A stretch of 64,000 nucleotides of DNA, taken from assembly GCF_900142985.1 (NCBI RefSeq), contig NZ_LT670849.1, positions 7,461,118 through 7,525,117 of the forward strand, read 5' to 3'. Of the stretch, positions 5,863-42,745 are shown piece after piece. This stretch comes from Bradyrhizobium erythrophlei (GTDB lineage: Bacteria; Pseudomonadota; Alphaproteobacteria; Rhizobiales; Xanthobacteraceae). How positions within the stretch are numbered: the first letter of the stretch is position 1; each line of letters starts with the position of its first letter. The notes beneath the pieces were generated by a model. The model ran no database searches. It was given only the letters and a program-made list of their open reading frames with translations, and had not been told where the DNA came from. Made by a program: the position numbers and the translations under genes.

Positions 5863-5880
5863 GTGTGAGAGGGGGCTACA

Positions 5881-25322: not shown

Positions 25323-28300
25323 TCATTGGGAAGGCGCACCGCCTGACGGATATGCATTATTCGATCCGGGCAAAACAGGCACACCACCAGGAACATCGGC
25401 AAGGACGATGTTCACGTTCGACGTGATCATCGTTTGATCCGACCCGATTTGTACAACATTGGTACCGGGTACCAGATCGGTTACCGGGATGGTGACGGCA
25501 AATGTTTTCCAGGTAAATCCGAGCTGATCCGGATAAGGCCAAGGCACTGAATGCGCATGACCATTCACCGTCACGTTGAGCGTAGTGAACGCATAATATT
25601 CGTAGAAATTGAAAAGAACGCGAACGGCTGCTGGCGTTGGATTAGCCGGTAAGTTTAACACGTTCCAGCTTGCGGTTTGGTTAGGACCAGATATCTGGCC
25701 TAGATCAGTTGTGCTCGTAGCCGGATCCGGCCGATTGATGTCCAATGCATCGTAGCTAAAGTCACGATAGGTAAATGGTCCGTCAAAGGCGACATTATCC
25801 CATACAAACGTATGTTGCTTTTGCGAGGGGGGAGCTCCCTTATCGGCGTTGTAATGCACATCTTCGAGCCAGATTAATCCGCGTGTAAGTGTCAGATTTG
25901 CGTTGGTGATAACGGCGATGTGCCTAAGCGTGGACGGCGATGGTGCGACACCGGCGTCGGTGGCATAGACGTCAATCTGACTTTGAGAGATCTTGAGTTC
26001 GACATGATTCATGATTCCTGAATTGTCAGGAGATGAAATCACACAGTCGAGTTGTTGGACCGCCATATTGGTTCGGACGCCACCAATTCCAACGGTATCG
26101 TCCATGACGTAATTACGAACGACCACGGCTGAATCGACCGTCCAACGTGGCTGACTTAAATTATTTCCATTGGGGCAAGATCCGTATTGCCCGGCAACAA
26201 CAGCTGCACCAAACCGAATTCCAAAACCGTTTTGTGGGAGTGCTTGCCATGTACCAAAGTGATTGAACGGCGCAGGTACTGGAAGATCAGACATCCAAAA
26301 CTCAGGCCATACTGCATGGATTCCGTGAGAATCATTGCTGACGTCAAAGGAGACGGTCCCGGTCCTTCCAGCAAAATCAAACGGCTGTTTCGGATACATC
26401 GCTAACGTTGTTACCGTTCCTGCCTCAAACACGCCGGTCGGATTATCATTGCTGGCTTCGCGAAGCTGGCCATTGCAAATTACTACATCGTTAGGAGGCG
26501 TAACCGCAGTCGTCCCACCACAGGTTTGGAGTTGGGTTGACAAAGCCCATCCATTAAGAGTGCCCTGACCAAAATTGGCCTGACCAGCCCGAGATACGCC
26601 CCACACATTTGGATCAAGATCGCCAGTGCGGCTCTGGATTCCGGGATTCTTCTGGTCAAAGGTCTCACAGAAGGCAACTGCACCACCCAACTGCATGCTG
26701 CAATTTCCGCTAACAGGAGTTGGAGATCCGGTCCCAGTCGATCCGGAGCCTGACCCAGACCCAGACCCAGACGCCACCAATACCGACGCCGAGCAACTCG
26801 CGGTGCTGCCGCCATTAGAACCGCCGCAGCTCCATGTCCACGGGCCAGAGCCTGCCACGGACGACGACGTGCCGGCTGAGCAAAGATTGGTTGAAGGTGC
26901 AGACGACGCCTGCGTGGCGTTTGCTGATCCACACACGCCGCTGATCGCCACCGGGGCGGCATTCACTGCCACCGTCGCACTCGCCATTGGCGACGTGCCT
27001 CCGGTCCCGGTGCAGGCCAGCGTGTAAGTCGTCGTGGTCGGCGGCGAAACTGCAAGAGTACCACTGGTTGCTTTCGGTCCTGTCCAACCGCCTCCGGCGT
27101 TGCATGAGCTTGCGTTGGTCGAATTCCAGGTTGCCATTGAGATCTGGCCAGAGGTTATGCCGGTTGGACTCGCCGAAAATGCTACCGTAGGAAGTGGAAC
27201 GTTGCCGCTACCGCCGCTCGGATATGCATTATTTGATCCGGGCAGAACGGGCACTCCCCCCGGGACATTCAAGAGTACGATGCTTACGTTGGACGTCACC
27301 ATAGCTTGATCCGACCCAAGCGTTACAACATTGGTGCCTGGCACAAGATCTGTAGTCGGAATGGTTACGGCAAAGGTCTTCCAGGTGAATCCCTTCGTGT
27401 CGGGGTAAGGCCAAGGCACTGAATGTGCATGACCGTTCACCGCCACGTTGAGCGTTTTGAAGGGGTAGTATTCGTAGAAATTGAAAACCACACGAACAGA
27501 CTCCGCCGTCGGATTGGCCGGAATACTGAGCACATTCCAGCTTGCGGTCTGATTAGGGCCAGAAATCTTGCCCAAGTCCAACGTGTGAGTAGCTGCATCT
27601 GCTTGCTCAACATCCAAGGCATCGTAGCTGAAGTCACGATAGGTGAATGGTCCGTCAAACGCCACATTGTCCCAGACAAACGTGTGTTGTCTCTGCGACG
27701 GTACATTCGGACTAGATTCGGCCGCGTCCGCGTTGAAGTGGACATCTTCAAGCGAGATTAACCCGCGCGTAAGCGCCAGATTAGCGTTGGTGATGACAGC
27801 GATGTGCCTAAGCGTGGACGGCGATGCTGCGACACCGGCATCGGTGGCGTAGACGTCGATCTGGTTTTGAGAGATCTTGAGCTCGATATGATTCATTATT
27901 CCTGAATTGTCGGGCGGTGAAATGACACAATCCAGTTGTTTGACCGCCATATTAGTTCGGACGCCGCCAATTCCGTTCGTATCATCCATAACGTAATTGC
28001 GAACGACCACAGCTGAATCGACTGTCCAGCGCCGCTTATCCAGATTGTTCCCGTTCCCGCACGATCCCCATCCACCAGGTGCAACCGCAGCACCGAAGCG
28101 GATTCCAAAACCGTTTTGTGGAAGAGCTTGCCACGAATCATAGTGGTTAAATGGCGTGGGGACTGGAAGATTACTCATCCAGAACTCGGGCCACGTTGCC
28201 GAAGTGCCGTGTGAATCATTACTAACGTCAAAAGAGACCGTCCCGGTCCTTCCGGAAAAATCAAACGGTTGTTTCGGAAACATTGCCAACGTTGTTACTG

Positions 28301-30635
28301 TGCCAGCCTCGTAAACACCGGTCGGATTGTCATTGCTGGCTTCACGGAGCTGGCCGTTACAAATCATGATGTCGTTGGGCGGCGTGACGGTAGTCGTCCC
28401 ATTACAAGTTTGAAGTTGGGTCGCCGCCCATCCATTGTACTGGCCTCGACCATAATTAACATTGCCGGTAGCACGAGAAACTCCCCAGACATTGGGATCG
28501 AGATCGCCGGTACGACCGCGGCTTCCGGAATTCTTCTTGTCAAAGGTTTCGCAGAAGGCGACCGAACCGCCTAACTGCATGCTGCAGTTCCCGCTGACAG
28601 GAGTTGGCGTTGGATCTGAGGTAGATCCAGATCCGGACCCGGACCCAGACCCCACCAACACCGACGCTGAGCAGCTCGCGCCGGTGCCGCCGTTGGCACC
28701 GCCACAGCTCCAGGTCCACGGGCCCGAGCCTGCCACGGACGACGACGTGCCGGCCGAGCAAAGGTTGGCGGAAGGTGCAGATGATGCTGGTATGCCGTTC
28801 GCCGATCCACACATACCGTTGATCGCCACCGGGGGAGCACCACCGACGGCCACGGTCGTACTGGCGGTTGGCGATGTGCCGCCGGCGCCGCTGCAGGCCA
28901 GCATGTAAGTCGTGGTGGTTTTTGGCGCTACCGCAAGAGTGCCGCTAGGGTCTTTCGGCCCCGACCAGCCGCCAGAGCCGGTGCACGAAGAAGCGTTGGT
29001 CGAAGACCAAGTCGCCATCGATATTTGGCCGGAGCTTATGTTGGTTGGGCTCGCCGAGAATGCCACCGTAGGTGGCGTGGCTGGCGGGGAAGTTACCGTA
29101 CCTGTGGTCCCCAGAAGCAAATCAATGTTGGCGACTACTGGCGGAAAATCCATCGGGGCGTTCAACGGGACCAATTCTAACGTATTCGTCCCTGAAACGA
29201 CGTCCGATGTTGGAACATCAAGCGACCACGACAAAAAGCCCAATGGCGCTCCGGCCACGGCATTTATATCGGCAAGATCCCCTGCCGTAAAATTATAGTT
29301 TCTCCAAGTACCACCATTAAAGCGATACTGAATGCCCCAAGTCGTATCCGGTGTATGAGTGACCGTATTGAAAAATGCGTTCAACGTGAGTGTCGCTGAA
29401 GTGATGCCCGCGATATTAACATTTTGAAACGTCAGAGCATTTATTTTGGTTGTCGGGCTATAGATTCCTATTCCTGTCGTTCCGTTGAGAAGTTGATAAC
29501 CTAGATTTTGCACAGGGCCAGCCACGGGGCCATTGTATGTCGAAGTGGTCGTGTTGTTTGGAATCTCGTAGGCGCTCGGCACGGGAACCACCGGCCCGTC
29601 AAAGCCAATGTTGTCCCAGTGGTAAACCACGTCAGGGCCAACGCCATACTTCACCGTTGCATGATTTCTCGGGTTGAAGTGAACGTAGCCGCGTGTGAAC
29701 GGTAGGTTGATGTTCGCCGTGTACAATAGCTTATAGTTAGGGAAGGTCTTCCCGTTGTCCGTCGAGAAATCGGAACCGTAGACGGCGATGGAATTTTGTG
29801 AGACCTGCACTTCGAAATGGTTCAACGAGCCAAACTGTGTAGCAGCGCAACCATTGACGTGGTCGTACGTTGGAGCGACGATTGTGCCGACGTAATTGTT
29901 GTAAATGAAGGTGTTGAGGGGGGCGACAGAGGTCGGGCATTCTGGAAAAGTACTTAACCGTAGCGTAAGACCATTTCTAGGAACCGGGCCCACTTCGAAA
30001 TTTTGAAATTCCCTGAACGTTGTGGCCGGCGACGGGTCTTGTGTAAGCTCAAGCTCAATGAAGCCTCCAAGATTTTGAGCCACGGCATCAACGTCAAAAT
30101 GAATTGTGCCAGTGCGTCCTGCGAAATCGAATGGCTGACGAACCATATATGAGTTGACGCCGTAATTTTGCATTGCGACAGCCGTCATTAGTTGTGACGA
30201 CCGCGTGCCGCTCGGGTCGCAAATCAATGTGTCATTCGGCGGGAAAACGGACGTTTGCGTAATTCCAGCGCGACATTGTGGGATTGGGGCAACCGGAACA
30301 GGATTGGCGGTGCCGTATCCAGATGAACCAATTTCCCCCGATAAGCGAGCCGTCGACCATTTTTTAGGGTCCAGGTCGCCGCCGCGGCCGCCGACGGCGG
30401 CTGGCCCCTCGTCGAATGTCTCACAGAACGCGGCTGCGCTTAGACTGCAATTTGCAGATGGAGTGAAAGTTGTCGGCGCGCTTTGAGCATACGCTAACGA
30501 GGCCATCACCAACGATTGGAGTCCGATGGCGAAGGCAAAGGCCCGAGCGAGTCCATGTCGAGCGCGAATAAGCGAATAGTTTAGGTAAGCCAATGATCTG
30601 CTCCGAAATATTTTTCCAATCTTAGATTCGATCAA
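25323..30635 (-). CDS. Giant secreted modular protein with three lectin/hydrolase-like modules
   Basis: 1770 residues. The likely start is TTG with AGGGG 6-7 bases upstream, giving a long-n-region signal peptide ending MASLAYAQS. Module A (about 60-515), module B (about 680-1140) and module C (about 1308-1770) each begin NCS....FCETFD and continue DLDPxxW, PFDFxGRTGTxxFDV, and DNxxFDGP. This reads like a beta-sandwich of the concanavalin/LamG or GH16-like kind, followed by a second beta domain in B and C (WNVLxxPANPT, FNFYEYYxFxTLNV, TDLVPGTNVV). Linkers contain Ig-like domains (VAFSASPTxISSGQISMATW), a Cys-rich SxSxAGSGPWTWSCGG domain and Gly-Ser repeats. It lies directly after gspG on the same strand, which suggests type II secretion cargo. 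I see no certain catalytic residues. Confidence 0.85.
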   Translation of the reverse strand: MIESKIGKIFRSRSLAYLNYSLIRARHGLARAFAFAIGLQSLVMASLAYAQSAPTTFTPSANCSLSAAAFCETFDEGPAAVGGRGGDLDPKKWSTARLSGEIGSSGYGTANPVPVAPIPQCRAGITQTSVFPPNDTLICDPSGTRSSQLMTAVAMQNYGVNSYMVRQPFDFAGRTGTIHFDVDAVAQNLGGFIELELTQDPSPATTFREFQNFEVGPVPRNGLTLRLSTFPECPTSVAPLNTFIYNNYVGTIVAPTYDHVNGCAATQFGSLNHFEVQVSQNSIAVYGSDFSTDNGKTFPNYKLLYTANINLPFTRGYVHFNPRNHATVKYGVGPDVVYHWDNIGFDGPVVPVPSAYEIPNNTTTSTYNGPVAGPVQNLGYQLLNGTTGIGIYSPTTKINALTFQNVNIAGITSATLTLNAFFNTVTHTPDTTWGIQYRFNGGTWRNYNFTAGDLADINAVAGAPLGFLSWSLDVPTSDVVSGTNTLELVPLNAPMDFPPVVANIDLLLGTTGTVTSPPATPPTVAFSASPTNISSGQISMATWSSTNASSCTGSGGWSGPKDPSGTLAVAPKTTTTYMLACSGAGGTSPTASTTVAVGGAPPVAINGMCGSANGIPASSAPSANLCSAGTSSSVAGSGPWTWSCGGANGGTGASCSASVLVGSGSGSGSGSTSDPTPTPVSGNCSMQLGGSVAFCETFDKKNSGSRGRTGDLDPNVWGVSRATGNVNYGRGQYNGWAATQLQTCNGTTTVTPPNDIMICNGQLREASNDNPTGVYEAGTVTTLAMFPKQPFDFSGRTGTVSFDVSNDSHGTSATWPEFWMSNLPVPTPFNHYDSWQALPQNGFGIRFGAAVAPGGWGSCGNGNNLDKRRWTVDSAVVVRNYVMDDTNGIGGVRTNMAVKQLDCVISPPDNSGIMNHIELKISQNQIDVYATDAGVAASPSTLRHIAVITNANLALTRGLISLEDVHFNADAAESSPNVPSQRQHTFVWDNVAFDGPFTYRDFSYDALDVEQADAATHTLDLGKISGPNQTASWNVLSIPANPTAESVRVVFNFYEYYPFKTLNVAVNGHAHSVPWPYPDTKGFTWKTFAVTIPTTDLVPGTNVVTLGSDQAMVTSNVSIVLLNVPGGVPVLPGSNNAYPSGGSGNVPLPTVAFSASPTGITSGQISMATWNSTNASSCNAGGGWTGPKATSGTLAVSPPTTTTYTLACTGTGGTSPMASATVAVNAAPVAISGVCGSANATQASSAPSTNLCSAGTSSSVAGSGPWTWSCGGSNGGSTASCSASVLVASGSGSGSGSGSTGTGSPTPVSGNCSMQLGGAVAFCETFDQKNPGIQSRTGDLDPNVWGVSRAGQANFGQGTLNGWALSTQLQTCGGTTAVTPPNDVVICNGQLREASNDNPTGVFEAGTVTTLAMYPKQPFDFAGRTGTVSFDVSNDSHGIHAVWPEFWMSDLPVPAPFNHFGTWQALPQNGFGIRFGAAVVAGQYGSCPNGNNLSQPRWTVDSAVVVRNYVMDDTVGIGGVRTNMAVQQLDCVISSPDNSGIMNHVELKISQSQIDVYATDAGVAPSPSTLRHIAVITNANLTLTRGLIWLEDVHYNADKGAPPSQKQHTFVWDNVAFDGPFTYRDFSYDALDINRPDPATSTTDLGQISGPNQTASWNVLNLPANPTPAAVRVLFNFYEYYAFTTLNVTVNGHAHSVPWPYPDQLGFTWKTFAVTIPVTDLVPGTNVVQIGSDQTMITSNVNIVLADVPGGVPVLPGSNNAYPSGGAPSQ
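26730..26775. repeat. Gly-Ser linker microrepeat before module C
   Basis: A run of CCAGAC/CCGGAG-like hexamers inside the giant gene encodes alternating Gly and Ser on the minus strand. A second tract with the same role lies at about 28620-28660 before module B. Their repetitive nature makes length variation by slippage likely. Confidence 0.6.
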
Positions 30636-30644
30636 ACAACACCC

Positions 30645-31217
30645 CTAGTGGGCGGCGGCTGCTAATGTTTCACCGTTGCCGATGTCGGCTGCGGTGCCAG
30701 TCCCGCCCTCCTGGCCATCCGACCCTAATGATATGATTTGATAAGGGCGCTTCTCGCCAGGAACTCGGTAAAGGTAGACATGCCCCCATGGGTCGACCGG
30801 CACGGATGCATTCTTTAGATAAGGTCCGTTCCAAACCGAAACGCCTGCAGGTCGCTGCACCAAAGCGGTAAGTCCTTCGCTCGCGGACGGATAGCGGCCG
30901 GCATCAAGATAAAACAGATCAAGTGCGCTGCCGAAGCTCTCGATCTGCAGCTTCGCGGCCTTGACCTTGGCATCTCCGAGATAGCTGAGAACTCGGGGCC
31001 CGACTAAGCCCATCACCAGACCGATGATCGTGATCACCACCAGCATCTCCACCAAAGTGAACCCGCCCTCACCATGGCCTCGCATCGCTTGCTGTCTACG
31101 CCCAGCGCTGCCGACATAGGGCCGCGACCTACGGGATCGCCGTCTAAATGCGCCAAACTTCGACGAAACTATACCCATCAGGTTGAGAGATGCCCTGGTT
31201 ATGACATGCCGCGACAT
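30645..31217 (-). CDS. gspG: Type II secretion major pseudopilin GspG
   Basis: A 190-residue protein with the prepilin signature G-FTLVEMLVVITIIGLVMGLVGPRVL, cleaved after Gly and N-methylated by the prepilin peptidase. It is followed by DAKVKAAKLQIESFGSALDLFYLDAGRYPSASEGLTALV and WNGPYLKNASVPVDPWGHVY, the calcium-binding-loop region of GspG. The start MSRHVITRAS has GGAGAG 7 bases upstream; it gives an unusually long, Arg-rich leader of about 50 residues, and a start at 31085 (MRGHGEGG) would give a normal short one. GspG forms the pseudopilus that pushes cargo through the secretin. It lies between gspE and the giant secreted protein gene. Confidence 0.93.
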   Translation of the reverse strand: MSRHVITRASLNLMGIVSSKFGAFRRRSRRSRPYVGSAGRRQQAMRGHGEGGFTLVEMLVVITIIGLVMGLVGPRVLSYLGDAKVKAAKLQIESFGSALDLFYLDAGRYPSASEGLTALVQRPAGVSVWNGPYLKNASVPVDPWGHVYLYRVPGEKRPYQIISLGSDGQEGGTGTAADIGNGETLAAAAH

Positions 31218-31283
31218 TTTCTTACTCTCCATCTCTTGATGTCGATCTGCCATCGACAACTCTTGCCAAGGTTACACAAACGG

Positions 31284-33038
31284 CTACCGAACCGAGGTCA
31301 CCCTGAGCACTTCCGATACTGTCGTAGTTCCAGCCCGGCATTTCACGACGGCATCGTCGATCATCGTGGTCATACCGGCATGGATAGCGGCTCTGTCGAT
31401 TGCCAACGAATCCGCGCTGGCGCCGACGAAGGGCCTGACTTCTTCAGTCAATTCAAGCAATTCAAAGACTCCGGCGCGCCCGCGATAACCAATTCCATTG
31501 CAGCGCTCGCAACCGACCGCTTGATAGACGGTTTCACCAGTTGCAAAACCCAGAACGCGATAACGGGGATCGGCCGCAAGATCGCCCCCGGTGAGTGCGT
31601 GCTTGCGTTTGCAGCCGTCGCAGAGCACCCGAACCAGCCGCTGCGCGATGACGGCCCGCAACGTCGATTGCAGGAGAAAACCCTCAACGCCGAGATCAAG
31701 AAGACGCGGCACGGCGGCGGCGGCGGTTTCGGTGTGCAGCGTCGTCAGCACGAGGTGCCCCGTCAGCGCCGCATGCACCGCGATATTCGCCGTTTCGGCG
31801 TCCCGGATTTCGCCGACCATTATGACGTCGGGGTCCTGACGAACGAAAGCTCGCATCGCCGCGGCGAAGGTCAAACCGATTGCCGGCTTGACCTGCGACT
31901 GGTTGATGCCGGGTATTTCGTATTCGACTGGATCTTCAATTGTCAGAATCTTACGTGTTGGCTCGTTCAGGATCCCCAGCATCGTCGCCAAGGTTGTCGT
32001 CTTGCCGCTTCCGGTTGGTCCGGTGATAATGATCAAGCCGTGCGGCAGAGCCAAAAGACGACGAAGGGAAGATTGATCTCGACTGCCTAGACCGACCTTG
32101 CTTAGCTCGAGTAAGCCACGATCTCGCGGCAGCAAGCGGATCACCGCGCTTTCGCCGTGCTGCGTCGGCATTGTAGCAACACGAATATCGATTTCGGATC
32201 GTCCTATCCGCGCGCGTGCCGCGCCGTCCTGCGGCAGCCGGCGTTCCGCAATATTGAGGCTGGCAAGAATCTTGATACGCGAGATGACGGCCTGCGGCGG
32301 CGCGTTGGTTGGCACCGGCACTGCGCGGAGCATCCCGTCGACCCGCATCCGCACGGCGAGTCCGGTCCGAAAAGGCTCGATGTGAATATCGCTTGCCCGC
32401 AATTCTACGGCGCGCTCGAGCAAATCGTTGACGGCCCGTACAACCGGCGCCCCGCTCGCCAGATCTCGCAGACTATCAATATCGTCGTCGCGAGACCGAT
32501 GCTTCGGTTCATCGACGTCCACAGTGTTGGGACTATGCTCGTCGACCTGCTTTTCCAGAACCGTCGAAATGTCATCGAACGACGCTATGGCGACCTCTAC
32601 TGCACCGTTGCAAACAATCTCGACAGCACGGATCGACGCGGCATCGGTCGGATCTGATACCGCCAAACCAAAGCGATCCTGGTCCGCCCGGAACGGAAAC
32701 ACAGAGGACTCGCGTAAGAAGCGTGCGGAGAAAAGCTCGGCCGCACTCGTCGCATTCATCAAATCCTGAAGATTCAATCGTCGCATACCCCAGAAGCGAG
32801 CCGCTTCATCCGCGAATTTACCGGCGGGCAGGTCAGACTTCTCCCACAACAGCCGCAACTGATTTCCAGACACCCCATCAACGGAATCTTGAAGTCGCAC
32901 TCGTGTTGCAGCCACGTCGGACAACTGATCCAGCAGATACCGACGGAAATGCTCGACCGAACGCAACGGCACGACAGCTCCTGCCGCCGACGTTTGGCCA
33001 CTTGGCATTGGCTTCGACCTGTTTCCGGCGAATTCCAT
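31284..33038 (-). CDS. gspE: Type II secretion ATPase GspE
   Basis: A 584-residue protein. After an N-terminal N1E-like domain, the secretion ATPase core contains ASDIHIEPF, the Walker A GPTGSGKTTT at about residues 339-348, the Asp box ILTIEDPVEYEIPGINQSQV, the Walker B segment FVRQDPDVIMVGEIRDAETA, and the His box LTTLHTETA. The tetracysteine zinc motif is CDGC near 472 and CERC near 510. It is the hexameric cytoplasmic motor that drives pseudopilus assembly through GspL and GspF. Its ATG overlaps by one base the stop of a small upstream frame (TGATG). Confidence 0.96.
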   Translation of the reverse strand: MEFAGNRSKPMPSGQTSAAGAVVPLRSVEHFRRYLLDQLSDVAATRVRLQDSVDGVSGNQLRLLWEKSDLPAGKFADEAARFWGMRRLNLQDLMNATSAAELFSARFLRESSVFPFRADQDRFGLAVSDPTDAASIRAVEIVCNGAVEVAIASFDDISTVLEKQVDEHSPNTVDVDEPKHRSRDDDIDSLRDLASGAPVVRAVNDLLERAVELRASDIHIEPFRTGLAVRMRVDGMLRAVPVPTNAPPQAVISRIKILASLNIAERRLPQDGAARARIGRSEIDIRVATMPTQHGESAVIRLLPRDRGLLELSKVGLGSRDQSSLRRLLALPHGLIIITGPTGSGKTTTLATMLGILNEPTRKILTIEDPVEYEIPGINQSQVKPAIGLTFAAAMRAFVRQDPDVIMVGEIRDAETANIAVHAALTGHLVLTTLHTETAAAAVPRLLDLGVEGFLLQSTLRAVIAQRLVRVLCDGCKRKHALTGGDLAADPRYRVLGFATGETVYQAVGCERCNGIGYRGRAGVFELLELTEEVRPFVGASADSLAIDRAAIHAGMTTMIDDAVVKCRAGTTTVSEVLRVTSVR

Positions 33039-33340: not shown

Positions 33341-33377
33341 TATTTCCTCGTTCCATGACGCCGCCTTGCACCGTTAG
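33249..33377 (+). CDS. Possible 42-residue protein with a perfect ribosome site
   Basis: The ATG at 33249 is preceded by GGGAGGTGAT, an unusually complete anti-16S match, with 2-4 bases before the start. The product MLSHANRARARKTGATVSLLPM, then FACANSLATISSFHDAALHR, has a basic start and a weak hydrophobic centre. I recognise no family. It is antisense to the small frame before gspE. Confidence 0.3.
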   Translation: MLSHANRARARKTGATVSLLPMFACANSLATISSFHDAALHR

Positions 33378-34208: not shown

Positions 34209-34213
34209 TGATA

Positions 34214-36649
34214 TCAACTTGGCGGTGAGCCACGCGGACCTGCCGCAGATGGCACTCCAGTCCCATTGATTACCGAGCTACCGCCGCGCATTGACTGCAA
34301 CTTGTCTCTGAATTCCTCGGTTACAGCGCTGGCGTCCTGGCCGTTTCGGATCATTTGCGTCTTGATGAAAATGATGATCTCCGAGCGGGTTTTGGTGCTG
34401 GACGTGTTGCCGAGCATGTCACCAAGGATCTTGATGTCGCGAAGACCGGGTATTCCGGAACGGGTTTCCTGATTGTTTTCGCTGATCAGGCCTGCGAGCA
34501 GCACGGTTTGTCCGCTTGTCACTGAGACGCTCGAGTGCACGCGGCGCTGGGAAATCGTTGGAGTTAGCGTCTGTTGATCGGGGTTAACAACATTAGAGAT
34601 CTCTTGATCGATCTCGAGCTGGATCGAACCGTTGGCGTGGATATGCGGCAGTACTTTCAGGATGACGCCGGTGTTGCGCATTTCAATCGTGTTGACGGTT
34701 GGCGTGGTCGAACTGGTTAGAAGCGTCGCCGAACTCGTTGAGACCGGAATTTCATCGCCTACCTGAAGCAGAGCTGGCTGATTGTCGAGTGCGACCAACG
34801 AGGGCGATGACAGCACCTTAACGTCGGTCACTGTCTGCAGCGCATTGATGATGGCGCGCGGATTCCCCGCGGATCCCAACAGCAAATTCAAACCAGGCCC
34901 CACGCTCTGCAGCAGGGCGGACTGGGCTGTCACCGATGCGGCCGCAGTTGCAGACGACTGAACCGTCGAAGCACCCGAGCCGAGAACACCACCCCCGACT
35001 TTATTGCCGTTCAGATAAAACTGAACGCCGTACTGCAAGGCGTTGGTCAACGTGACTTCGGCCACAGTCGCGTCAATCGCCACTTGCAGTTTCGCCTTAT
35101 CAAGGTCGCGGACCGCGCGCTCAACCACTCGATATTCGGCCTGAGTGGAATAGACCACAATCGCATTGTTGGCGTTGTCGGCGGTAATTCGCACGTTCTG
35201 AAATGCGCCACGCACGGCGTTGCCACCAGACAGCAGCGAAGCGCTTTCCGGGCCTTCCCCCTCAGTTCCTTTCCGATCCGAGAAGGTGTCAAAAGCAGTA
35301 GATATCGGTTTGCCGCCCAGACCGCCGCTGCTGTTGGATGCCGTCGTCAAGCCTCGACTGCCGGCCCCCTTGTCAAGGGAGTCCAGGCGGGATTCCGAAC
35401 CGTTGACGCCCGGCGCGAGCTGTTTGCCGGGTGTGTCGGAAGCCGAACCGGATCGCTGAAGGAAGATATCGTTCAGGATTTTGGCTATCTGAGTCGCATT
35501 GCCATTCTTCAAGCGAAAAGTATGCATCGATGTGCCGGAAGAATCGAAGCGATCGAGGCGGCGCACCCATTCCGTCGTTTGTGCAAGCAATTTAGGCGTC
35601 CTGGTGACGACCATGACTGCATTCATGCGCGAGATCGGCTGGAACCGAATAACTCCCTGCCCCACACCACCGTCACGAGTCTCGAATATCCGTTCAAGTT
35701 CTCCGATCATCGTCTCGGGCGAAGTTGATTTTAGCGGATAGACTCCGACCGATTGATTGCGCAGCCATTCCACGTCGAACGTCGCGACCATATCGAGAGC
35801 TGCCTCACGCTCGGCTGTCGTACCCTGAACCAAAAGCAGATTACGGGACGGGACAACGCGGATCGAACCGGGCCTGGCCAAAAAGCTTTCTGCAGTCTTC
35901 GCTACCGTCTCCGCAGACGTATATCGCAGCGGCACCAGCGATACGCCGTAACCTGGTTCGCCAGCACCCGCAACCGAGCCACCGGCGCTACCTTCTGGAA
36001 GCGGCACGATCTTCATTAAATTTCCGCTACGCACGATCACCGCGTTCGACATGCGCAATACGCTTTCGAATGCTGGCAGCACGTCCTTGCGGGGTATCGG
36101 GCCCGACGAAGCCAGCGTCACGTGACCCTGCACGCGCGGATCGACCGTAAAATTGAGCTGAAGAATATCGCCGAGCAGGAACTTAGCGACGGTCTGCACG
36201 TCGGCGCCATCGAAATTAATCTCAACGCCGTCGCTCTTTGCGGAAGCAACCTGGTCGAGGCTGTCGCCTTTGATAAATGCAGCCTGCTGGAGTGACGCAG
36301 GCGTCATCGCGGGGTTGGGGCCGCGTCGGGAGTTTGGCACCACCTCAGGCCCAACGTCAGCACCGGGAAACAAGAGAGGCCCCGCGGTTTGACTGCCTAC
36401 CTGGGGCTGTTCTTCGGCTGCTGGGAAGCGAGGGCTCAAATCCGCTTTGCGAACAGTATTGAGAGCGTCGTGCGACGACGTCGTATCCCCGACGCGCGAA
36501 GTATCCCCGAAAAGACTAGCGCCAGGTCCAGCGCAGCCCATCAAGCCACCCACCAGCAACATCGCCGAGCAAGCCCGTAAAATATTAGGGTAATTTAATT
36601 CCTTACGGAAATTTACCCCCCCAAAATAAGTCAAAATGTGCTCCCGCAC
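34214..36649 (-). CDS. gspD: Type II secretion secretin GspD
   Basis: An 811-residue protein. A lipoprotein-type signal (AMLLVGGLMG-Cys, Cys near 39) replaces the usual Sec signal peptide. N0 (VEINFDGADVQTVAKFLLGDILQLNFTVDP near 145), N1-N3 domains (YPLKSTSPETMIGELERIF, IVVYSTQAEYRVVERAVRDLD) and the C-terminal secretin barrel (VKVLSSPSLVALDNQPALLQVGDEIPV, VGVILKVLPHI-like, QTVLLAGLISE, PGLRDIKILGDML) are all present. It forms the outer-membrane pore. The long-frame start is GTG; ATG at residue 30 would still leave a lipoprotein signal. Gly/Ser-rich loops between N3 repeats are longer than usual. A 237-base gap precedes it. Confidence 0.96.
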   Translation of the reverse strand: MREHILTYFGGVNFRKELNYPNILRACSAMLLVGGLMGCAGPGASLFGDTSRVGDTTSSHDALNTVRKADLSPRFPAAEEQPQVGSQTAGPLLFPGADVGPEVVPNSRRGPNPAMTPASLQQAAFIKGDSLDQVASAKSDGVEINFDGADVQTVAKFLLGDILQLNFTVDPRVQGHVTLASSGPIPRKDVLPAFESVLRMSNAVIVRSGNLMKIVPLPEGSAGGSVAGAGEPGYGVSLVPLRYTSAETVAKTAESFLARPGSIRVVPSRNLLLVQGTTAEREAALDMVATFDVEWLRNQSVGVYPLKSTSPETMIGELERIFETRDGGVGQGVIRFQPISRMNAVMVVTRTPKLLAQTTEWVRRLDRFDSSGTSMHTFRLKNGNATQIAKILNDIFLQRSGSASDTPGKQLAPGVNGSESRLDSLDKGAGSRGLTTASNSSGGLGGKPISTAFDTFSDRKGTEGEGPESASLLSGGNAVRGAFQNVRITADNANNAIVVYSTQAEYRVVERAVRDLDKAKLQVAIDATVAEVTLTNALQYGVQFYLNGNKVGGGVLGSGASTVQSSATAAASVTAQSALLQSVGPGLNLLLGSAGNPRAIINALQTVTDVKVLSSPSLVALDNQPALLQVGDEIPVSTSSATLLTSSTTPTVNTIEMRNTGVILKVLPHIHANGSIQLEIDQEISNVVNPDQQTLTPTISQRRVHSSVSVTSGQTVLLAGLISENNQETRSGIPGLRDIKILGDMLGNTSSTKTRSEIIIFIKTQMIRNGQDASAVTEEFRDKLQSMRGGSSVINGTGVPSAAGPRGSPPS

Positions 36650-36886: not shown

Positions 36887-37420
36887 CTAATCTTTCGCTT
36901 TGTTGCCGGCCGATGTCGGATTCTGCTGCTGCGGAAACTGCGGCGCGTAGGGTGAAATGGGACCGTCGCTTAAAATCCGTTGATCGGCTTCCCGATTAAA
37001 AAGCGTAAACGTGGCGAAGCGACCATCAAGTGACAAGATCAGCTTGCGTCCCACGATCCCACTAACCGTCCATCCGCCTATTTCATCGCCAACTTGCGCG
37101 CGTATGGTCTTCTTCTCAGGTCCAACTTGGACAACGACATGCGCACTCGCCCCATCCATTACAACGCCGGAGACAACTAGATTTGGTGGCGGAGTTGGAG
37201 ACGTTCGTGGTTCGGGATCGCGAGACATCTGCGGAATTGAAGCGCCGTGACGGCTCGGAGAAAATAACGGTCGATCCACAATCGCCGACAACCGCTCCAT
37301 CGTTTCGGTCGCGAGCGGGTTGGAAGGCGAGGCCTGCATGGTCGATGTCGATGGATCGGCACCAAGCGCCGCGGTCGTGCATAACAACAGAACAGCAGGC
37401 GTCAGGCAAAGGTGCATCAT
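36887..37420 (-). CDS. Type II secretion GspC-like inner-membrane connector
   Basis: A 177-residue protein. The ATG overlaps the gspM stop (ATGA), preceded by GCGAGGAAG. A signal or anchor segment (LCLTPAVLLLCTTAALGA) is followed by LSAIVDRPLFSPSRHG, as in the region before the HR domain of GspC/PilP-type proteins. A small beta domain follows (NLVVSGVVMDGASAHVVVQVGPEKKTIRAQVGDEIGGWTVSGIVGRKLILSLDG). In GspC the HR domain binds the N0 domain of the secretin, linking inner and outer membranes. No PDZ domain is present. Position between gspM and gspD fits; some annotations may name this GspN or GspP. Confidence 0.75.
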   Translation of the reverse strand: MMHLCLTPAVLLLCTTAALGADPSTSTMQASPSNPLATETMERLSAIVDRPLFSPSRHGASIPQMSRDPEPRTSPTPPPNLVVSGVVMDGASAHVVVQVGPEKKTIRAQVGDEIGGWTVSGIVGRKLILSLDGRFATFTLFNREADQRILSDGPISPYAPQFPQQQNPTSAGNKAKD

Positions 37421-37956
37421 GGACTTCCTCGCCGCCAAAACGCACGCAAGCTCATCGTTACTCGCAAGATCGGATCTTCCGCGTGGCCTGCCGTCGTGCT
37501 GGCCGGCTGTAACGTCAATGTATCGACGAATACGTAAGGTGTCCCGCTTTCAAGCTGATAAAGGACCGCACGCAACGCCCTCGTGTTCATGTCAAGTGTG
37601 GCCTGAATTCTGACTGTGTCGACAGCCTCATCGCCTTTGGCCGGTTCTGCCCCTGTCGAAACTAGTCCAGCCTGCTGAAGGTCGGCGAGTTGTGCCAAGT
37701 ACGCCTGTAGTTTGGCGTTCGCGATACCTGTGGTAGGCGCGTCAAGAAAAGCCGAGGGGGGTGCTGCGCCGTTTAACCGACCCGCACCTGCTCGCATTTT
37801 TGTGTCCAAACGCGAGAGTAGTTCACGATGTTCGGCTAGCTCCGAACCAGCATCCGAACGCATCTGAACAGATAGTCCGGCTACAAACAAACATGCCAGC
37901 AACAACACGGCCAATACCGCTACAGAAATAGCTTGTTCGCGGTCCAACCTTAGCAC
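37417..37956 (-). CDS. gspM: Type II secretion GspM-like protein
   Basis: A 179-residue bitopic protein: a short cytoplasmic basic N-terminus (MLRLDREQA), one membrane helix (ISVAVLAVLLLACLFVAGLSV), a coiled-coil-like stretch (ELAEHRELLSRLDTKM) and a ferredoxin-like C-terminal part (VRIQATLDMNTRALRAVLYQLESGTPYVFVDTLTLQP). This matches the T2SM_b type of GspM, which stabilises GspL in the inner-membrane platform. It starts 3 bases after the gspL stop and its stop overlaps the next start. Confidence 0.85.
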   Translation of the reverse strand: MLRLDREQAISVAVLAVLLLACLFVAGLSVQMRSDAGSELAEHRELLSRLDTKMRAGAGRLNGAAPPSAFLDAPTTGIANAKLQAYLAQLADLQQAGLVSTGAEPAKGDEAVDTVRIQATLDMNTRALRAVLYQLESGTPYVFVDTLTLQPASTTAGHAEDPILRVTMSLRAFWRRGSP

Positions 37957-37959
37957 ACC

Positions 37960-39027
37960 TCACTCCTTTTCAAGCCTGATACGAGGTTCGACGTGCGCCT
38001 CGATAGAAAATCTGAAGGATTTGCCGTCCGAGCCGCGCGTCGTTGGTGCGGAAAAATGCACGCCGGTCAGGTGTCCCGACTGTTCAAGCGGTGCAAGCAA
38101 TCCCGGCGCATCATCAGCCAGCCCGACCATTCGCAATGTCGCGCTTTCCAGGCGAATTTCGGTCAAATATGCGGAATCGGGCAAGGCACGCGACAATGCC
38201 TCAAGGAGGATTACGCTGGAACCGGAGGTCTCCTTCAAGAACCATGCGCGCTCTGCCGACGAACCTGAAGCCGCCGCAGACGGCATCTGGCCACCCTGAA
38301 TTTGCAGCTGCAAGGCTTTGGCGCGGACGGCGATACTTTCACTCTCGTCGCGAATATTTCCGGCCGATACAAACGCCCAGAGGGTCAAGCACGTACTCGC
38401 CGCGACGATACCACCGATGCCCAAACCAATCAGGCGGCTCAACCTTTCAGGATGATCAAGTGAACCGTCCGTCGATCGCGACCACAGGGTCACGGGTTTT
38501 CTCGCATCATCTAGATTTTCGATAAGTGAGTTCGCCACGATGCGATCGACTTGAACATTGAGCGTGGCCAAATGTTTTCGAAATGCGTCGATATTCGCCC
38601 GCGAAGCTATCAGGATCCGCACGTCAAACACCGAGGCATTTTCCGAGTTCACTTCGCCGTCGAAACCGTAAACTACGTCGTTCGGTGGCCAGGGCGACAG
38701 CCGTTCGATCTGATTGCGGACCACACCCGACAAAAACTTCTGTGCCCCCGCCGGGACCGTGATGTCCCGCCTTACGATCTTGTCAGGAGGAAATTCTGCA
38801 ACGACAAAACTGTTGTGGGGGGCATCCAATAGGTGCGCCGACGAATTTGGCTCGGGTCGATCCTGTGGACGAGTTATATCATGGCTGGATCTAGTCTCCC
38901 TTACGACGACTTGCTGATTTTCAAGTGCGATGGTTAGAGCACGCTGTTCACGGCGGTGCTCGTGCCAAGCAACTAAGAGTGTCGCCAACGTCTCGATCCA
39001 TCGCTTCAGAATGGCAGGCATCCGCAT
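37960..39027 (-). CDS. gspL: Type II secretion GspL-like protein
   Basis: A 355-residue protein. The ATG at 39027 follows the gspK stop by 4 bases, with CAGAGG just upstream; a GTG one codon earlier is also possible. The N-terminal part (about 1-200) resembles the actin-like cytoplasmic domain of GspL, with NQIERLSPWPPNDVVYGF and IASRANIDAFRKHL. A membrane helix follows (LIGLGIGGIVAASTCLTLWAF near 210), then a PilN-like periplasmic domain (LLEALSRALPDSAYLTEIRLESATLRMVGLADDAPGLLAPLEQ). GspL recruits the GspE motor to the membrane and pairs with GspM, the next gene. Confidence 0.88.
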   Translation of the reverse strand: MRMPAILKRWIETLATLLVAWHEHRREQRALTIALENQQVVVRETRSSHDITRPQDRPEPNSSAHLLDAPHNSFVVAEFPPDKIVRRDITVPAGAQKFLSGVVRNQIERLSPWPPNDVVYGFDGEVNSENASVFDVRILIASRANIDAFRKHLATLNVQVDRIVANSLIENLDDARKPVTLWSRSTDGSLDHPERLSRLIGLGIGGIVAASTCLTLWAFVSAGNIRDESESIAVRAKALQLQIQGGQMPSAAASGSSAERAWFLKETSGSSVILLEALSRALPDSAYLTEIRLESATLRMVGLADDAPGLLAPLEQSGHLTGVHFSAPTTRGSDGKSFRFSIEAHVEPRIRLEKE

Positions 39028-39031
39028 CACA

Positions 39032-39940
39032 CTACCTCTGCGTCATGGGACTGCCCCATATAGAAGCTTTGGCATATGGAATTGGCGTCCAAATCAGCAC
39101 GCGGTACGGTTGGCTATCTTGAGGTAGCACAACAATCACAGCGTGGGCCGCGGCGGCATAACCGCTCATCAATTCCGCCGTCAGATCCACCGACACGACT
39201 CGCTGCGACTTGACCGCAAGGTATTGCTGCGCCGGTCCAAGAAGACGTCCGAACCGATCGGGGTTTGAGAGAGAATTGCGTCGAGCCTTGATGAACTCTG
39301 CAGCCCGTTGGGCGTCAACGCCGGGCAGCGCCGCGATGACAACTAGTGGTGCAGTCAACGGATTGACGGTTGAGTCACCGAACACGGTTGTTAGTGGCGC
39401 AATTGCCTCGATCCACTCGGGCTCCATTCCCGGAACAGAGTGAAGTTGGCCTAGGTCGGCGAAGGGCTGATTAGTGGTAGATGGTGGGAGCGCTTGACTG
39501 GATGGATGACCTCCATTGTCGGGATTTGCCGCACTGCCGGGACTGCGTCTTTCGACGATGCGACGAGCGACGGTGCCAGCCGCCCCTTCCGGAGCGCCAA
39601 TCGAACGCAACATTGAAGCAAGAACCTCAACCGGTGCCTTGCCAATATCGATTCGGCCGCCCTCGTCATTGAGACGCACACGCACGGCGCCAGTACCGAG
39701 GGTAGCCGTCGTCTCGACCTCGGACAACGGAACATCGCCGGGAGTCTGCACGATGCCCGCGGCCGTCTCAAGTCCGGCGGTTAAAAGCGCCTCTGCCTGC
39801 ACCTGATCGCGTTCAACCGCCATCACACCGGCAAAGCCCCGGAAGGTGACCGATGCGGCCATCGCCAACGCCGAAAGCAGCGATATGGACCACAGCACGG
39901 TCACCAAAACCATTCCACGTCGTGAATCGCTGTGTGTCAT
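39032..39940 (-). CDS. gspK: Type II secretion minor pseudopilin GspK
   Basis: A 302-residue protein, long for a pseudopilin as GspK always is. The prepilin-like start is SRRGMVLVTVLWSISLLSALAMAASVTF with the leader cut after Gly; the usual Glu at +5 is replaced by Val, as is typical of GspK, which caps the pseudopilus tip. VRLNDEGGRIDIGKAPVEVLASML and the helix-hairpin-helix-like LPGVDAQRAAEFIKAR are the family's conserved parts. The ATG overlaps the gspJ stop (ATGA). Confidence 0.92.
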   Translation of the reverse strand: MTHSDSRRGMVLVTVLWSISLLSALAMAASVTFRGFAGVMAVERDQVQAEALLTAGLETAAGIVQTPGDVPLSEVETTATLGTGAVRVRLNDEGGRIDIGKAPVEVLASMLRSIGAPEGAAGTVARRIVERRSPGSAANPDNGGHPSSQALPPSTTNQPFADLGQLHSVPGMEPEWIEAIAPLTTVFGDSTVNPLTAPLVVIAALPGVDAQRAAEFIKARRNSLSNPDRFGRLLGPAQQYLAVKSQRVVSVDLTAELMSGYAAAAHAVIVVLPQDSQPYRVLIWTPIPYAKASIWGSPMTQR

Positions 39941-40674
39941 TGCGCCCGGCTTTCGGACTTAGAAGGGCCATTCGGCGGCAATAGACACGCAGGCTTCGCA
40001 TCGCTTTGCCCGCAGGCCGGCGGCGCATCAGAGCGAACAACAAAAGTCGCATCGCCGAGCAAATCAACGCCAGTTTCGCGGTTGCGCAAGATCAAACGAA
40101 CGTAGCGGGGCAACGTCAATTCCTCAATCCAATTGGAAGACCATACCGGCGCGCCCGCCGGCGTGCTGCGTCCGAATTGGAACGACATGTCCAGCTTACC
40201 TTCGATCAGAACCACAGGATCTTTTGGCGTCAAATCTTCGAAGTGCGTGCGACCTCCTGGCCACTTCGCGCGGCGTCTGACAAGCCGACGCAAATCGCCA
40301 TCCCGCTCGATGGTCAGGCTAACGAGCTCATCGTCACTGGAGCTTGATGCAACGCCCCCCGCACCCACGAAGACCACGTTTGCTGACCGACCTGCGCTTT
40401 CTTGCTCGGCGGCAAACGCGATGGCGGTACCATCCGCTGTTGGTCGTGACACAAAGCGAGCTGAACTGAAATCGCCGGCCAAACGTCCGACAGCGAGAAC
40501 AAGACGCTCGGCTTCAGTTGCCCCTCGCGTTCCGCGGTCGAAGTAAATCGCAACATTTCGGATAAGCGCTGCGCTGGCAACTATGATCACCGAGGCAATC
40601 GTCAGTGCGGCCAAAACCTCGACAAGAGTAAAACCTTCACTTCCAGAGTTAATGCCTCGGCCTTGCATTGCCAT
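39937..40674 (-). CDS. gspJ: Type II secretion minor pseudopilin GspJ
   Basis: A 245-residue protein with the prepilin signature SEGFTLVEVLAALTIASVIIVASAALI near residue 12, including the Glu at +5. The C-terminal globular domain is beta-rich (VVFVGAGGVASSSSDDELVSLTIERDGDLRRLVRR) and contains a Cys pair (ACGQSDAKPAC) near the end. GspJ forms the tip complex with GspI and GspK. It begins one base after the gspI stop and overlaps gspK by 4 bases. Confidence 0.92.
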   Translation of the reverse strand: MAMQGRGINSGSEGFTLVEVLAALTIASVIIVASAALIRNVAIYFDRGTRGATEAERLVLAVGRLAGDFSSARFVSRPTADGTAIAFAAEQESAGRSANVVFVGAGGVASSSSDDELVSLTIERDGDLRRLVRRRAKWPGGRTHFEDLTPKDPVVLIEGKLDMSFQFGRSTPAGAPVWSSNWIEELTLPRYVRLILRNRETGVDLLGDATFVVRSDAPPACGQSDAKPACLLPPNGPSKSESRAQ

Positions 40675-40675
40675 C

Positions 40676-41101
40676 TCAGGGTTTTCCGAGCCGTATCGTC
40701 TCAGCCATAATGACCTGGCCGGGCGCCCAGCTCACGCTTGCGACCACACGAAAAGTCAACCAATTTGATTGGTCCTGCCTACGGACCGAAGCGGCCTGTT
40801 CAGTGTCGACGCGCCAACGCAATCCGCTGGTTTCGCCTTCCTGGGAAGTGATTGCCAAACTGGAGCGATCGACTGGGGCATTAATTAGCGAGCGCAGGAG
40901 AACCTGCGCCGCGACGCGGCCCTCGGCATTTGCCATGATGCGGCGTGCCTGTGACAGGTGTGGCCCTACCGCGCTCGCAAAAACGACAAGCAGCGTGAGA
41001 GCGACGAGAGCTTCAAGCAGCGTAAATCCGGCCTGCCCATCTCTTCCGTCGTTATGGCCCGATCGCGACACCACCGGTGTACCAGTTAACACGGATCTCA
41101 T
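40676..41101 (-). CDS. gspI: Type II secretion minor pseudopilin GspI
   Basis: A 141-residue protein with the signature QAGFTLLEALVALTLLVVFASAVGPHLSQA near residue 25, Glu at +5 of the mature chain. The C-terminal part contains LRWRVDTEQAASVRRQDQSNWLTFRVVASVSW. It nucleates the tip complex. MRSVLTGTPVV was taken as the start and would overlap gspH by about 50 bases; a start slightly upstream at 41116 is also possible. The long overlap is unusual in this operon and the true start may be inside. Confidence 0.88.
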   Translation of the reverse strand: MRSVLTGTPVVSRSGHNDGRDGQAGFTLLEALVALTLLVVFASAVGPHLSQARRIMANAEGRVAAQVLLRSLINAPVDRSSLAITSQEGETSGLRWRVDTEQAASVRRQDQSNWLTFRVVASVSWAPGQVIMAETIRLGKP

Positions 41102-41540
41102 ATTCCGCCTTTTCACGAGATAATTTCAATACCACTCCCGTCGATGCGCCATCCGGATGAAAGCGAACGACAGCCTGACGTCCAGACCAGAGTGCGTCGA
41201 TACCGAGGATGTCGAGGGCGATGTCGCGCGGCAGCGCAACGATACCCCCTCCGTCACCAACCAGGATACGTCGTTTGGCATCGAGAGATACCTCCCGATC
41301 GCGCCCCGTCAGAATCGCCCCAAGCCGTTCGCGTCGGAGCAGCGAGGCGGTCTGCAGCGTCACAGCCTTCAAACCGGCGCGGCCAGTGCCCGGCATCATT
41401 GTTAACACAAGCGTGGCGACCAGAGCTATAATGAGCATCACCGCCATGACCTCGATGAGGGTGAAGCCGGCGCCTCGATCGGCGTTCCAGCTTCGCAACA
41501 CTGGCAGTACGACGCGGACCACCCTGATCCTCCGGTTCAC
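41052..41540 (-). CDS. gspH: Type II secretion minor pseudopilin GspH
   Basis: A 162-residue protein with GAGFTLIEVMAVMLIIALVATLVLTMMPG near residue 23, then LQTASLLRRERLGAILTGRDREVSLDAKRR, the GspH pattern of a helix followed by a two-sheet beta domain. The Arg-rich leader (MNRRIRVVRVVLPVLRSW) is about 22 residues, longer than enterobacterial ones. GspH lies below the tip complex in the pseudopilus. Its ATG overlaps the gspF stop (ATGA). Confidence 0.9.
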   Translation of the reverse strand: MNRRIRVVRVVLPVLRSWNADRGAGFTLIEVMAVMLIIALVATLVLTMMPGTGRAGLKAVTLQTASLLRRERLGAILTGRDREVSLDAKRRILVGDGGGIVALPRDIALDILGIDALWSGRQAVVRFHPDGASTGVVLKLSREKAEYEIRVNWYTGGVAIGP

Positions 41541-42745
41541 TGCGCAAGATCTGTCATACTAAGCAGAGAACTCATGATCGATACGATCAGCGTACCAATG
41601 ACAATACTGACCACAATGATCGTGATCGGCCCGATCGCACCCATCAAGCGATCGAGACCCAATCCGAGTTTGTGCTCGTAGAAACGCGACGCATGACGGA
41701 CGATGTTCGCAACGTCGCCCACCTCATCTCCTACTCTCAGCATTCTCACTGCGAGCGGAGGAAGCAGTGTCGTGTCCGCCAAGGCCTCTGCAAACCTCCG
41801 GCCGTTCCTCACCTGCTCGTGGACGCTGTCGAGCGCCGCGACATAACGTGGTTCGGTAACGATGTCTCGAAGGATCTTGAGTGCCGCTGGAAGTGGGACG
41901 CCATTTTCGAGCAGCAGACCGAGCGTCCCCACGATCCGTGCCGTCCGGCGATCACCAGCCAACTCTGAAATTCCGGGAAGCAACGTGACTGCGCCGATGA
42001 TCCGCGCACGCCATTCGCGGTTACGCAATACCAGCCAAGTACCCACAACCAAAAACAGGCAGATCCCCAAAAAGAGATCCAGATTGCGACGCAGCAAGGA
42101 CGAGCACGCCACCACGAAAGCTGCACCCGAGTTAAGGCGACCACCAAGATCGGCAAACACAGGTTCGAACTGTGGCACGACATACATCAGGAAAAAAAGC
42201 AGGATAACAATCGCCGAGCCGACCAGAAACAACGGATAGCGGATCGCAGAATTAATTCGATCGGTCAGGACCTCCTTGCGTGAGCGGTCTTCGACGATCG
42301 CACGCAGTACGGCATCCAATTTTCCCGATGCTTCACCTGCACGTACCATTGCGACATAGGCGGGTTCGATAGCGACGGTATGTTGTTCCAGCGCTTCTGC
42401 GAAACTGTCGCCGGCGGAAATCGATGCGCGCAGATCCTGAGCAAATCCCGCCAGGCCTTTGCTTGTGTTGTCGCTGAGCGTCTGCAGCGCCGCTTCTAGC
42501 GTCAATCCGGCACCGAGAAGGAGCGCCAACTGATGCAAAAAAATGGAAACGTCCCGTGATCGCGGCGCCTTTCCAGCAGACTTGCGGCTACGCGTAAGAA
42601 TTCCTGTGGTAACAGGCTCGGCATCGATGGTCAGGTGACCTAGATACTCAATACGCCGCACCACTTCTTCACGCGATGACGCATCCACCTCGCCGGCGAC
42701 GATCTCGCCCGCAGGCGTGACAGCGCGATAACGGAATTGCGGCAT
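41537..42745 (-). CDS. gspF: Type II secretion inner-membrane platform protein GspF
   Basis: A 402-residue protein starting MPQFRYRAVTPAGEIVAGEVDASSREEVVRRI, the GspF N-terminal motif, followed by two repeated cytoplasmic domains (FLHQLALLLGAGLTLEAALQTL and IVGTLGLLLENGVPLPAALKIL, each followed by VRAGEASG or LRVGDEVGD) and three membrane helices (near 170-190, 220-245, 370-395). It is the central platform protein contacting GspE, L and M. It heads the locus; AGGGGCG lies 7 bases before the ATG, so the promoter is in the 400 bases upstream. Confidence 0.95.
   Translation of the reverse strand: MPQFRYRAVTPAGEIVAGEVDASSREEVVRRIEYLGHLTIDAEPVTTGILTRSRKSAGKAPRSRDVSIFLHQLALLLGAGLTLEAALQTLSDNTSKGLAGFAQDLRASISAGDSFAEALEQHTVAIEPAYVAMVRAGEASGKLDAVLRAIVEDRSRKEVLTDRINSAIRYPLFLVGSAIVILLFFLMYVVPQFEPVFADLGGRLNSGAAFVVACSSLLRRNLDLFLGICLFLVVGTWLVLRNREWRARIIGAVTLLPGISELAGDRRTARIVGTLGLLLENGVPLPAALKILRDIVTEPRYVAALDSVHEQVRNGRRFAEALADTTLLPPLAVRMLRVGDEVGDVANIVRHASRFYEHKLGLGLDRLMGAIGPITIIVVSIVIGTLIVSIMSSLLSMTDLAQ

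Follow-up and report, generated by a model that had tools for sequence, protein, structure and literature searches.

In the Klebsiella Pul and Pseudomonas Hxc systems, a cargo gene (pullulanase and LapA, respectively) adjoins the gsp genes of a type II secretion system (T2SS), and the cargo is an enzyme of a known family. In Vibrio cholerae, the rbm cluster is placed between the vps clusters. PulA is named in PMC12802150, and RbmA, RbmC and Bap1 are given as exported by the V. cholerae T2SS in PMC6901666. The window analysed here, the final 64 kb (64,000 nucleotides) of the single-contig 7.525 Mb genome of Bradyrhizobium erythrophlei (G000), contains a gsp operon that lies within an extracellular polysaccharide (EPS) locus and ends in a gene for a giant protein of 1770 residues. 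The reading that we favour, with moderate confidence, is that this operon exports a carbohydrate-binding matrix protein that would function like RbmC and Bap1; the export, polysaccharide binding, co-expression and structural role are read from gene context and sequence. The likeness claimed is one of function, not of family membership: RbmC and Bap1 are secreted, T2SS-exported matrix proteins, some of this group being encoded in the biofilm-linked rbm cluster. The difference is that in Bradyrhizobium the candidate cargo gene stands inside the gsp operon, and the T2SS within the EPS locus. With Pul and Hxc the locus shares a cargo gene adjacent to gsp genes; unlike their cargo, the giant belongs to a family without a name and is built of tandem modules.

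The genes of the operon and the modules of the giant are as follows (window positions).

25323..30635, minus strand: giant secreted protein, 1770 aa (signal, module A, linker, module B1, linker, module B2)
27246..28598, minus strand: module B1, an unassigned N-terminal domain (27648-28598) and a CBM35-like domain (27246-27647)
25371..26723, minus strand: module B2, boundaries from module searches and alignment
41537..42745, minus strand: gspF (PF00482, 160 bits, above the Pfam cut-off; under the NCBIfam equivalog cut-off)
41052..41540, minus strand: gspH (NF047827, 63.8 bits, under the cut-off of 160; N_methyl; order)
40676..41116, minus strand: gspI (N_methyl; NF047828, E 9.1e-6, under the cut-off; position)
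39937..40674, minus strand: gspJ (N_methyl, PF07963; position)
39032..39940, minus strand: gspK (PF21687, 34 bits, above the cut-off of 26.2)
37960..39030, minus strand: gspL with a PilN domain (PF05137, E 1.1e-12, above the Pfam cut-off), the subtype-defining gene
37417..37956, minus strand: gspM, XpsM type (NF040576, 106.7 bits, above the cut-off of 60; a Pfam match as well)
36887..37438, minus strand: short GspC-like protein without PDZ (NF041515, E 1.8e-5; TIGR01713, E 0.0012; both under the cut-off)
34214..36649, minus strand: gspD secretin (TIGR02517, 421.6 bits, above the cut-off of 351.35)
33615..34217, minus strand: gspO prepilin peptidase (PF01478, 50.3 bits, above the cut-off of 26.5)
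31284..33038, minus strand: gspE ATPase (PF00437, 426 bits, above the Pfam cut-off; best NCBIfam match TIGR02533, 555.9 bits, under the cut-off of 630.25)
30645..31259, minus strand: gspG major pseudopilin (TIGR01710, 147.6 bits, above the cut-off of 88.85; PF08334)

The gsp genes run in the order F-H-I-J-K-L-M-C-D-O-E-G on the minus strand from 42745 to 30645, followed last by the giant gene, 9 bp past gspG. The intergenic gaps are between -65 and +24 bp, except for C-D (237 bp) and O-E (576 bp); no convincing gene was seen in the latter gap (33038-33614), a site that holds two extra genes in the related genome G335. A GspD secretin, a GspG with the T2SSG domain and a single cluster of E, F, O, L and M with the minor pseudopilins define the system as a T2SS, GspH, GspI and GspJ being identified from gene order, the N-methylation motif and weak family matches. 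The GspC-like protein (183 aa) aligns to positions 30-176 of 311 in NF041515 and 67-151 of 259 in TIGR01713, with zero Pfam matches. As only the first part of the GspC models is matched, and no Pfam family, its description as short and PDZ-less in an earlier, sequence-only reading is valid, and the core genes were likewise found in one orientation, as that reading had it, from gene calls, family matches and order. GspC is a component declared forbidden in pilus models, according to PMC4793230. No GspS was recognised, and no search aimed at GspS was made. The genome has two more GspE-type genes with equally strong matches, each close to another GspL match.

The secretion machine itself is ordinary, with a standard T2SS gene set, and the earlier suggestion of an undescribed secretion system was not upheld. 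A PDZ-less GspC was rejected as the mark of an unusual system: the GspC open reading frames (ORFs) of the near relatives G335 and G533 are 205 aa and 195 aa, and in three of four plasmid T2SSs the gene after gspM encodes a short hypothetical protein. These Bradyrhizobium and Methylosinus plasmid systems have the same kinds of genes as the window, but with D, E, F and G in another order, and no match to the giant was found in 72,556 plasmid records. A cytochrome c peroxidase gene adjoins the plasmid T2SS of strain 186.

The giant begins with a TTG start codon (its database version, P0001, is 1756 aa) and has a Sec-type signal, recognised by eye (...AFAIGLQSLVMASLAYA-QS). Three related modules had been proposed, which was correct, with the refinement that they are of two kinds in the order A-B-B (module A, residues 56-512; B1, 680-1130; B2, 1308-1755). 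B1 and B2 are 83% identical; module A is 33% identical to them, with alignment scores of 306 and 326 against a mean of about -76 (standard deviation about 20) for 200 shuffles. Each linker comprises an immunoglobulin (Ig)-like part and a cysteine-rich part (by eye), and the B modules have conserved cysteines in common. The giant gene is single-copy in the genome. No Pfam or NCBIfam family was found in the protein above cut-off, and the libraries searched contain no description of the cargo family.

The evidence for linkage comes from 265 same-genus genomes, four of which carry module B: G000, G533 (complete, one contig), G337 and G339. In all four, the module gene lies immediately after gspG of the same T2SS clade (L082/L083 in G533, L017 in G337, L016 and L085 in G339), which bears out the proposed link of the T2SS to its own secreted-protein gene. 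At E 1e-40, the window GspL was matched in 20 of the genomes, five at 54-100% identity (G000, G533, G337, G339 with a partial match, and G335) and 15, the sister subtype, at 42-50%. The five formed one clade in a GspF tree of 15 rows (support 99/98), with G335 nested among the module carriers at modest support (87/85), a position that suits module loss in G335 without showing it. The chance of four random genomes of 265 all falling in the five-member group is 2.5e-8, which is not a significance level since the genomes are related. T2SS proteins differ by 17-48% between the window and G533; the stretch from gspD to gspE of G533 showed no gspO.

T2SS clusters elsewhere do not always lack the cargo gene, as the four carriers attest; it is missing from G335 and from all 15 sister-subtype genomes in the search of 265. 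No module gene was present in the seven sister-subtype regions of G385, G377 (short contig), G003, G346, G412, G402 and G004. Module B was not found in 40 other relatives (a sample without the three later-found carriers), nor in 288 other genomes of the class except for a hit in G318 (E 7.6e-4, 110 residues) that was discarded as too weak; the whole giant as query gave no relatives in the first genome contig scan. The designation "giant" fits the 1770 aa here and is not constant, the G337 protein being 717 aa long with a single B. The G533 protein is an ORF of about 1500 aa, and those of G337 and G339 have W_rich_C (PF07483) domains at the front.

A further gene tracks the module gene.

43123..43587, plus strand: sp154, a small secreted cysteine-containing protein, divergent from gspF

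The sp154 protein has a signal (by eye) and four conserved cysteines. Strong matches (E < 1e-20) were found in 6 of 265 genomes, namely the four module carriers, G355 and G522, with no match in G335; three weak hits (E 4.1e-4 to 8.9e-4), interrupted by internal stops, were not counted as evidence. The gene is divergent from gspF in all four module genomes (the window, G533, L112 of G337 and L074 of G339), and no T2SS gene was found in the stretch read around it in G355 and G522. G000, G337 and G533 have additional copies at other sites; the G000 copy is at C1:49652-50047, 49.6 kb from the chromosome start and past EPS genes. A role as pilotin was rejected, as no lipobox was seen by eye and these second copies are away from the T2SS. 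Of 8000 candidates scored in a protein search, 742 passed as homologues at E 0.001, and all of the 120 listed are unnamed and have no Pfam domain; against the PDB there was nothing useful (best E 0.17). The module protein P0004 and the sp154 relative P0216 are both on contigs of 21,990 bases, and thus probably on one contig. What is new at this locus is the coupling of a T2SS operon, a modular cargo, sp154 and an EPS locus; the T2SS is of a known kind. No description of such a locus was seen among the titles and abstract openings surveyed, all from open-licence papers.

The proposal of a carbohydrate-binding function comes from the C-terminal domain of the module, which resembles CBM35. A profile built from 18 C-terminal module parts matched the PDB entries 2w3j, a carbohydrate binding module (E 8.4e-6), and 7bys, a galactan 1,3-beta-galactosidase (E 3.6e-5); we take 2w3j and the C-terminal part of 7bys to be CBM35. 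PF14683, a polysaccharide-lyase-associated CBM-like domain, was matched weakly in four of the 19 module B sequences (E 0.0063 at best), Pfam giving nothing better than about E 0.006 on the 19, and was above the cut-off of 27 in the whole homologue P0041 (31.9 bits). The likeness to CBM35 modules thus consists of a profile match, and the difference is that the module here adds a 300-residue unmatched N-terminal domain. This N-terminal part (~300 residues) matched no solved PDB chain at E up to 10 in a profile search. Its residues invariant across phyla in module B include R42, D90, N236, D285 and H287. The division into two domains was tested on B modules and assumed for A. The fusion of two module proteins, P0031 and P0036, to GH5 cellulase also counts for the matrix-protein reading.

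An alternative that we consider unlikely is that the giant is a T2SS-exported enzyme degrading or trimming the EPS or a plant or soil polysaccharide, with a catalytic N-terminal domain (hydrolase or lyase) and the CBM35-like domain for binding. It draws on the unassigned N-terminal domain, with its polar residues that do not vary across phyla, and gains from the same GH5 cellulase fusions and from the GH9 and apiosidase-like proteins also encoded in the EPS region. Against it, Pfam recognised no catalytic family in the modules, nor did the PDB profile search of the N-terminal domain, and the presence of two or three tandem copies in a chain is commoner for repeats with a binding or structural role.

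The setting in a polysaccharide locus, as originally proposed, was confirmed and extends further than the window.

45694..47151, plus strand: bacterial sugar transferase (PF02397)
17042..18367, plus strand: Wza-type polysaccharide export protein, first copy (PF02563)
49937..51187, plus strand: Wza-type polysaccharide export protein, second near-identical copy, by similarity to the first
58745..59824, minus strand: family 2 glycosyltransferase, with homologues near module genes in Chloroflexi
62651..63697, plus strand: family 2 glycosyltransferase, with a homologue near the module gene in Chloroflexota L023
52608..54086, plus strand: GMC oxidoreductase, with a homologue near the module gene in actinomycete L021
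19785..21200, minus strand: secreted BNR/Vps10-like propeller (PF15902, 29.2 bits, under the cut-off of 33)

The EPS region spans the window and the chromosome start (L086, L087 and L108), the genome being taken as circular, and encodes a sugar transferase and several glycosyltransferases alongside the Wza-type export proteins, as well as GH9 and apiosidase-like enzymes, PhyH-type oxygenases and the GMC oxidoreductase; a chain-length-type kinase was recognised by eye. Its 42 mechanically called ORFs were compared with 11 module loci (10 genomes, 180 kb), all outside Bradyrhizobium, L023 and L027 being from the same genome; the comparison did not include two short contigs from the L025 genome, L024 and L026. 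The controls were 20 loci (330 kb) around further hits to a glycosyltransferase among these 42 ORFs, in four of the module genomes (G572, G574, G575 and G576), which replaced an earlier control using T2SS loci of other genomes that was judged unfair. At 130 bits or more, a threshold chosen after the scores were known, there were 18 EPS matches in 6 of the 11 module loci (L018, L019, L021, L022, L023 and L027) versus one match in one control (L141). At 100 bits, the counts were 21 versus 10, and at 60 bits 26 versus 27. The sole L018 match at 130 bits is the propeller; propeller homologues near module B genes were seen at L018:11155-12519 (Rudaea) and L021:20428-21233 (actinomycete). Within the genus, the glycosyltransferase at L087:10412-11605 has orthologues of 78-82% in three other carriers (G533, G569 and G570) and best hits of just 30% in G335 and G385; in G572 its best genome-wide hit lies in the module locus itself, and in G574 it lies on the contig with the module. 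The orthologue pattern of this one glycosyltransferase indicates that, in the genus, the module gene goes with the EPS locus, and that the T2SS of G335 is without either. In G533, the T2SS is beside a diverged version of the EPS locus.

The module family is much wider than the T2SS clade. With the giant as query, 64 proteins were found, the giant included, among the 7999 candidates scored, which were those sharing most words with the query at 0.55 to 1.75 times its length; 44 had module A or B at E 1e-5 (both kinds in 30, two Bs in seven, a single B in seven). The module B profile was passed at E 0.001 by 1090 proteins of 8000 scored candidates, and the names given among the 120 homologues listed were "hypothetical protein" or Ig domain. 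Fusions of module B to Vps10/BNR propellers were found in P0035 and P0044. Genomes scanned with a module B alignment showed 15 loci, distributed over Alphaproteobacteria, Rudaea, Actinobacteria, Chloroflexota and Eremiobacterota. Among 12 genomes with module loci, all of them metagenome-assembled genomes (MAGs) of unstated completeness, three (with L016, L017 and the Rudaea locus) had GspD (TIGR02517) above cut-off, the Eremiobacterota genome having sub-cut-off matches only. The other eight, all of Actinobacteria or Chloroflexota, had no TIGR02517 match; specificity of the module to T2SSs was rejected on this count, and the earlier idea of a cargo that belongs to T2SSs was not supported. The named orders among these eight are assumed to be Actinobacteria, and we take their phyla to be monoderm, so that no outer-membrane route would be needed. 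In PMC4793230, diderm-like secretion loci are given as absent from monoderm genomes. The occurrence of the module without GspD in presumed monoderms agrees with a T2SS being required for this protein where there is an outer membrane to cross.

These eight genomes also speak for a second alternative, in which the giant is a bystander that leaves by another route or stays periplasmic or surface-bound, the T2SS exporting other proteins; the monoderm assignment of their phyla counters this, if correct. The alternative is also favoured by the 15 sister-subtype genomes without a module gene and by G335, in whose T2SS the space between gspO and gspE is taken instead by genes for a di-haem oxidoreductase and a TonB-C-domain protein (L062:1643-4307), a possible alternative cargo. 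The same post-gspG position is kept in four of four genomes despite the 17-48% T2SS divergence of the window from G533. Furthermore, no autotransporter or C-terminal sorting domain was recognised in the giant in the Pfam and NCBIfam scans, and no RTX array is present (one GGxGxD match). On balance, we regard a bystander as rather improbable. That the T2SS and giant are unrelated passengers of a horizontally moved EPS island, joined by transfer instead of function, is suggested by the 99.1% identical Wza-type genes flanking 32.8 kb with the T2SS, giant and propeller, but is very improbable given that the giant gene is inside the operon, more than a mere neighbour, and that the arrangement is kept in G533 beside a diverged EPS locus.

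Several observations weigh against export of a matrix protein by this T2SS. The CBM35 match is remote, and the N-terminal domain, which is most of each module and without a solved match, could be an enzyme. The architecture is variable (a single B in the 717 aa of G337, A and B in the 1445 aa of G339, two Bs in G533), and G335 retains the clade T2SS without a module gene after gspG. The four carriers share ancestry, so that the counts overstate independence, and two are fragmented MAGs. Of the module loci, five of 11 (L020, L025, L028, L029 and L030) are without an EPS match of at least 130 bits, and the 60-bit match density, 1.44 versus 0.82 per 10 kb in the controls, is less than twofold higher.

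Under the favoured reading of a T2SS-exported matrix protein, the giant would be produced from the 3' end of the gsp operon, where its gene is positioned, by co-transcription. It would pass the inner membrane via Sec, as the signal suggests, and fold in the periplasm with disulfides, to which the conserved cysteines of the B modules point. The folded protein would then be moved through the secretin by the T2SS, as the linkage and co-occurrence suggest. Outside the cell, the A and B modules may attach at several points to the polysaccharide that the locus produces, and the bound giant may organise or anchor capsule or slime, with sp154, and perhaps the BNR propeller, as partners. The module family would belong with EPS loci and not with T2SSs: where a bacterium has no T2SS, release by Sec alone is presumably sufficient, and Bradyrhizobium would have coupled a T2SS to the module protein for crossing of the outer membrane.

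A broader proposal, put forward tentatively, is that the A and B modules are an undescribed cross-phylum extracellular class assembling one related group of EPS, and that diderm soil bacteria captured the T2SS operon with sp154 as a dedicated export arm, as one co-inherited unit. If the favoured reading is right, it would give a function to a large unnamed secreted family (the 1090 proteins above) and would mean that the Bradyrhizobium group has a T2SS devoted to a single polysaccharide matrix. With one operon and one cargo, the locus would also be a tractable case for what marks a T2SS cargo, the homologues in bacteria without a GspD match being the comparison set.

The remaining observations concern neighbouring sequence. 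The two Wza-type genes are 99.1% identical over 1253 bp (17125-18377 and 49945-51197); with near-identical copies, recombination could excise, move or amplify the 32.8 kb stretch between them. A nucleotide-sugar epimerase-family gene (PF16363/PF01370) is present at 51307-52299, with homologues of 72-73% next to or one gene from gspM in six of seven sister-subtype regions (L064, L065, L066, L068, L070 and L075), a link between T2SS and sugar without the module. An SGNH-type gene remnant (by eye) at 45032-45367 can be aligned with residues 27-119 of its homologue in G337 (L112), a 313-residue protein encoded upstream of gspF, the rest being unmatched. In the Rudaea module locus (L018), the ORFs ending at 11329, 12519 and 18332 share near-identical -IFxxGFE tails (by eye), perhaps a sorting signal. 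Apparent decayed copies at 60079-60508 and 60752-60865 are similar to the G533 homologue of the glycosyltransferase at 58745-59824. A tRNA-Gln (704-777) is followed by mobile-element-like ORFs (DNA methyltransferase, recombination-type; by eye), and this stretch, 704-9641, is possibly an island edge.

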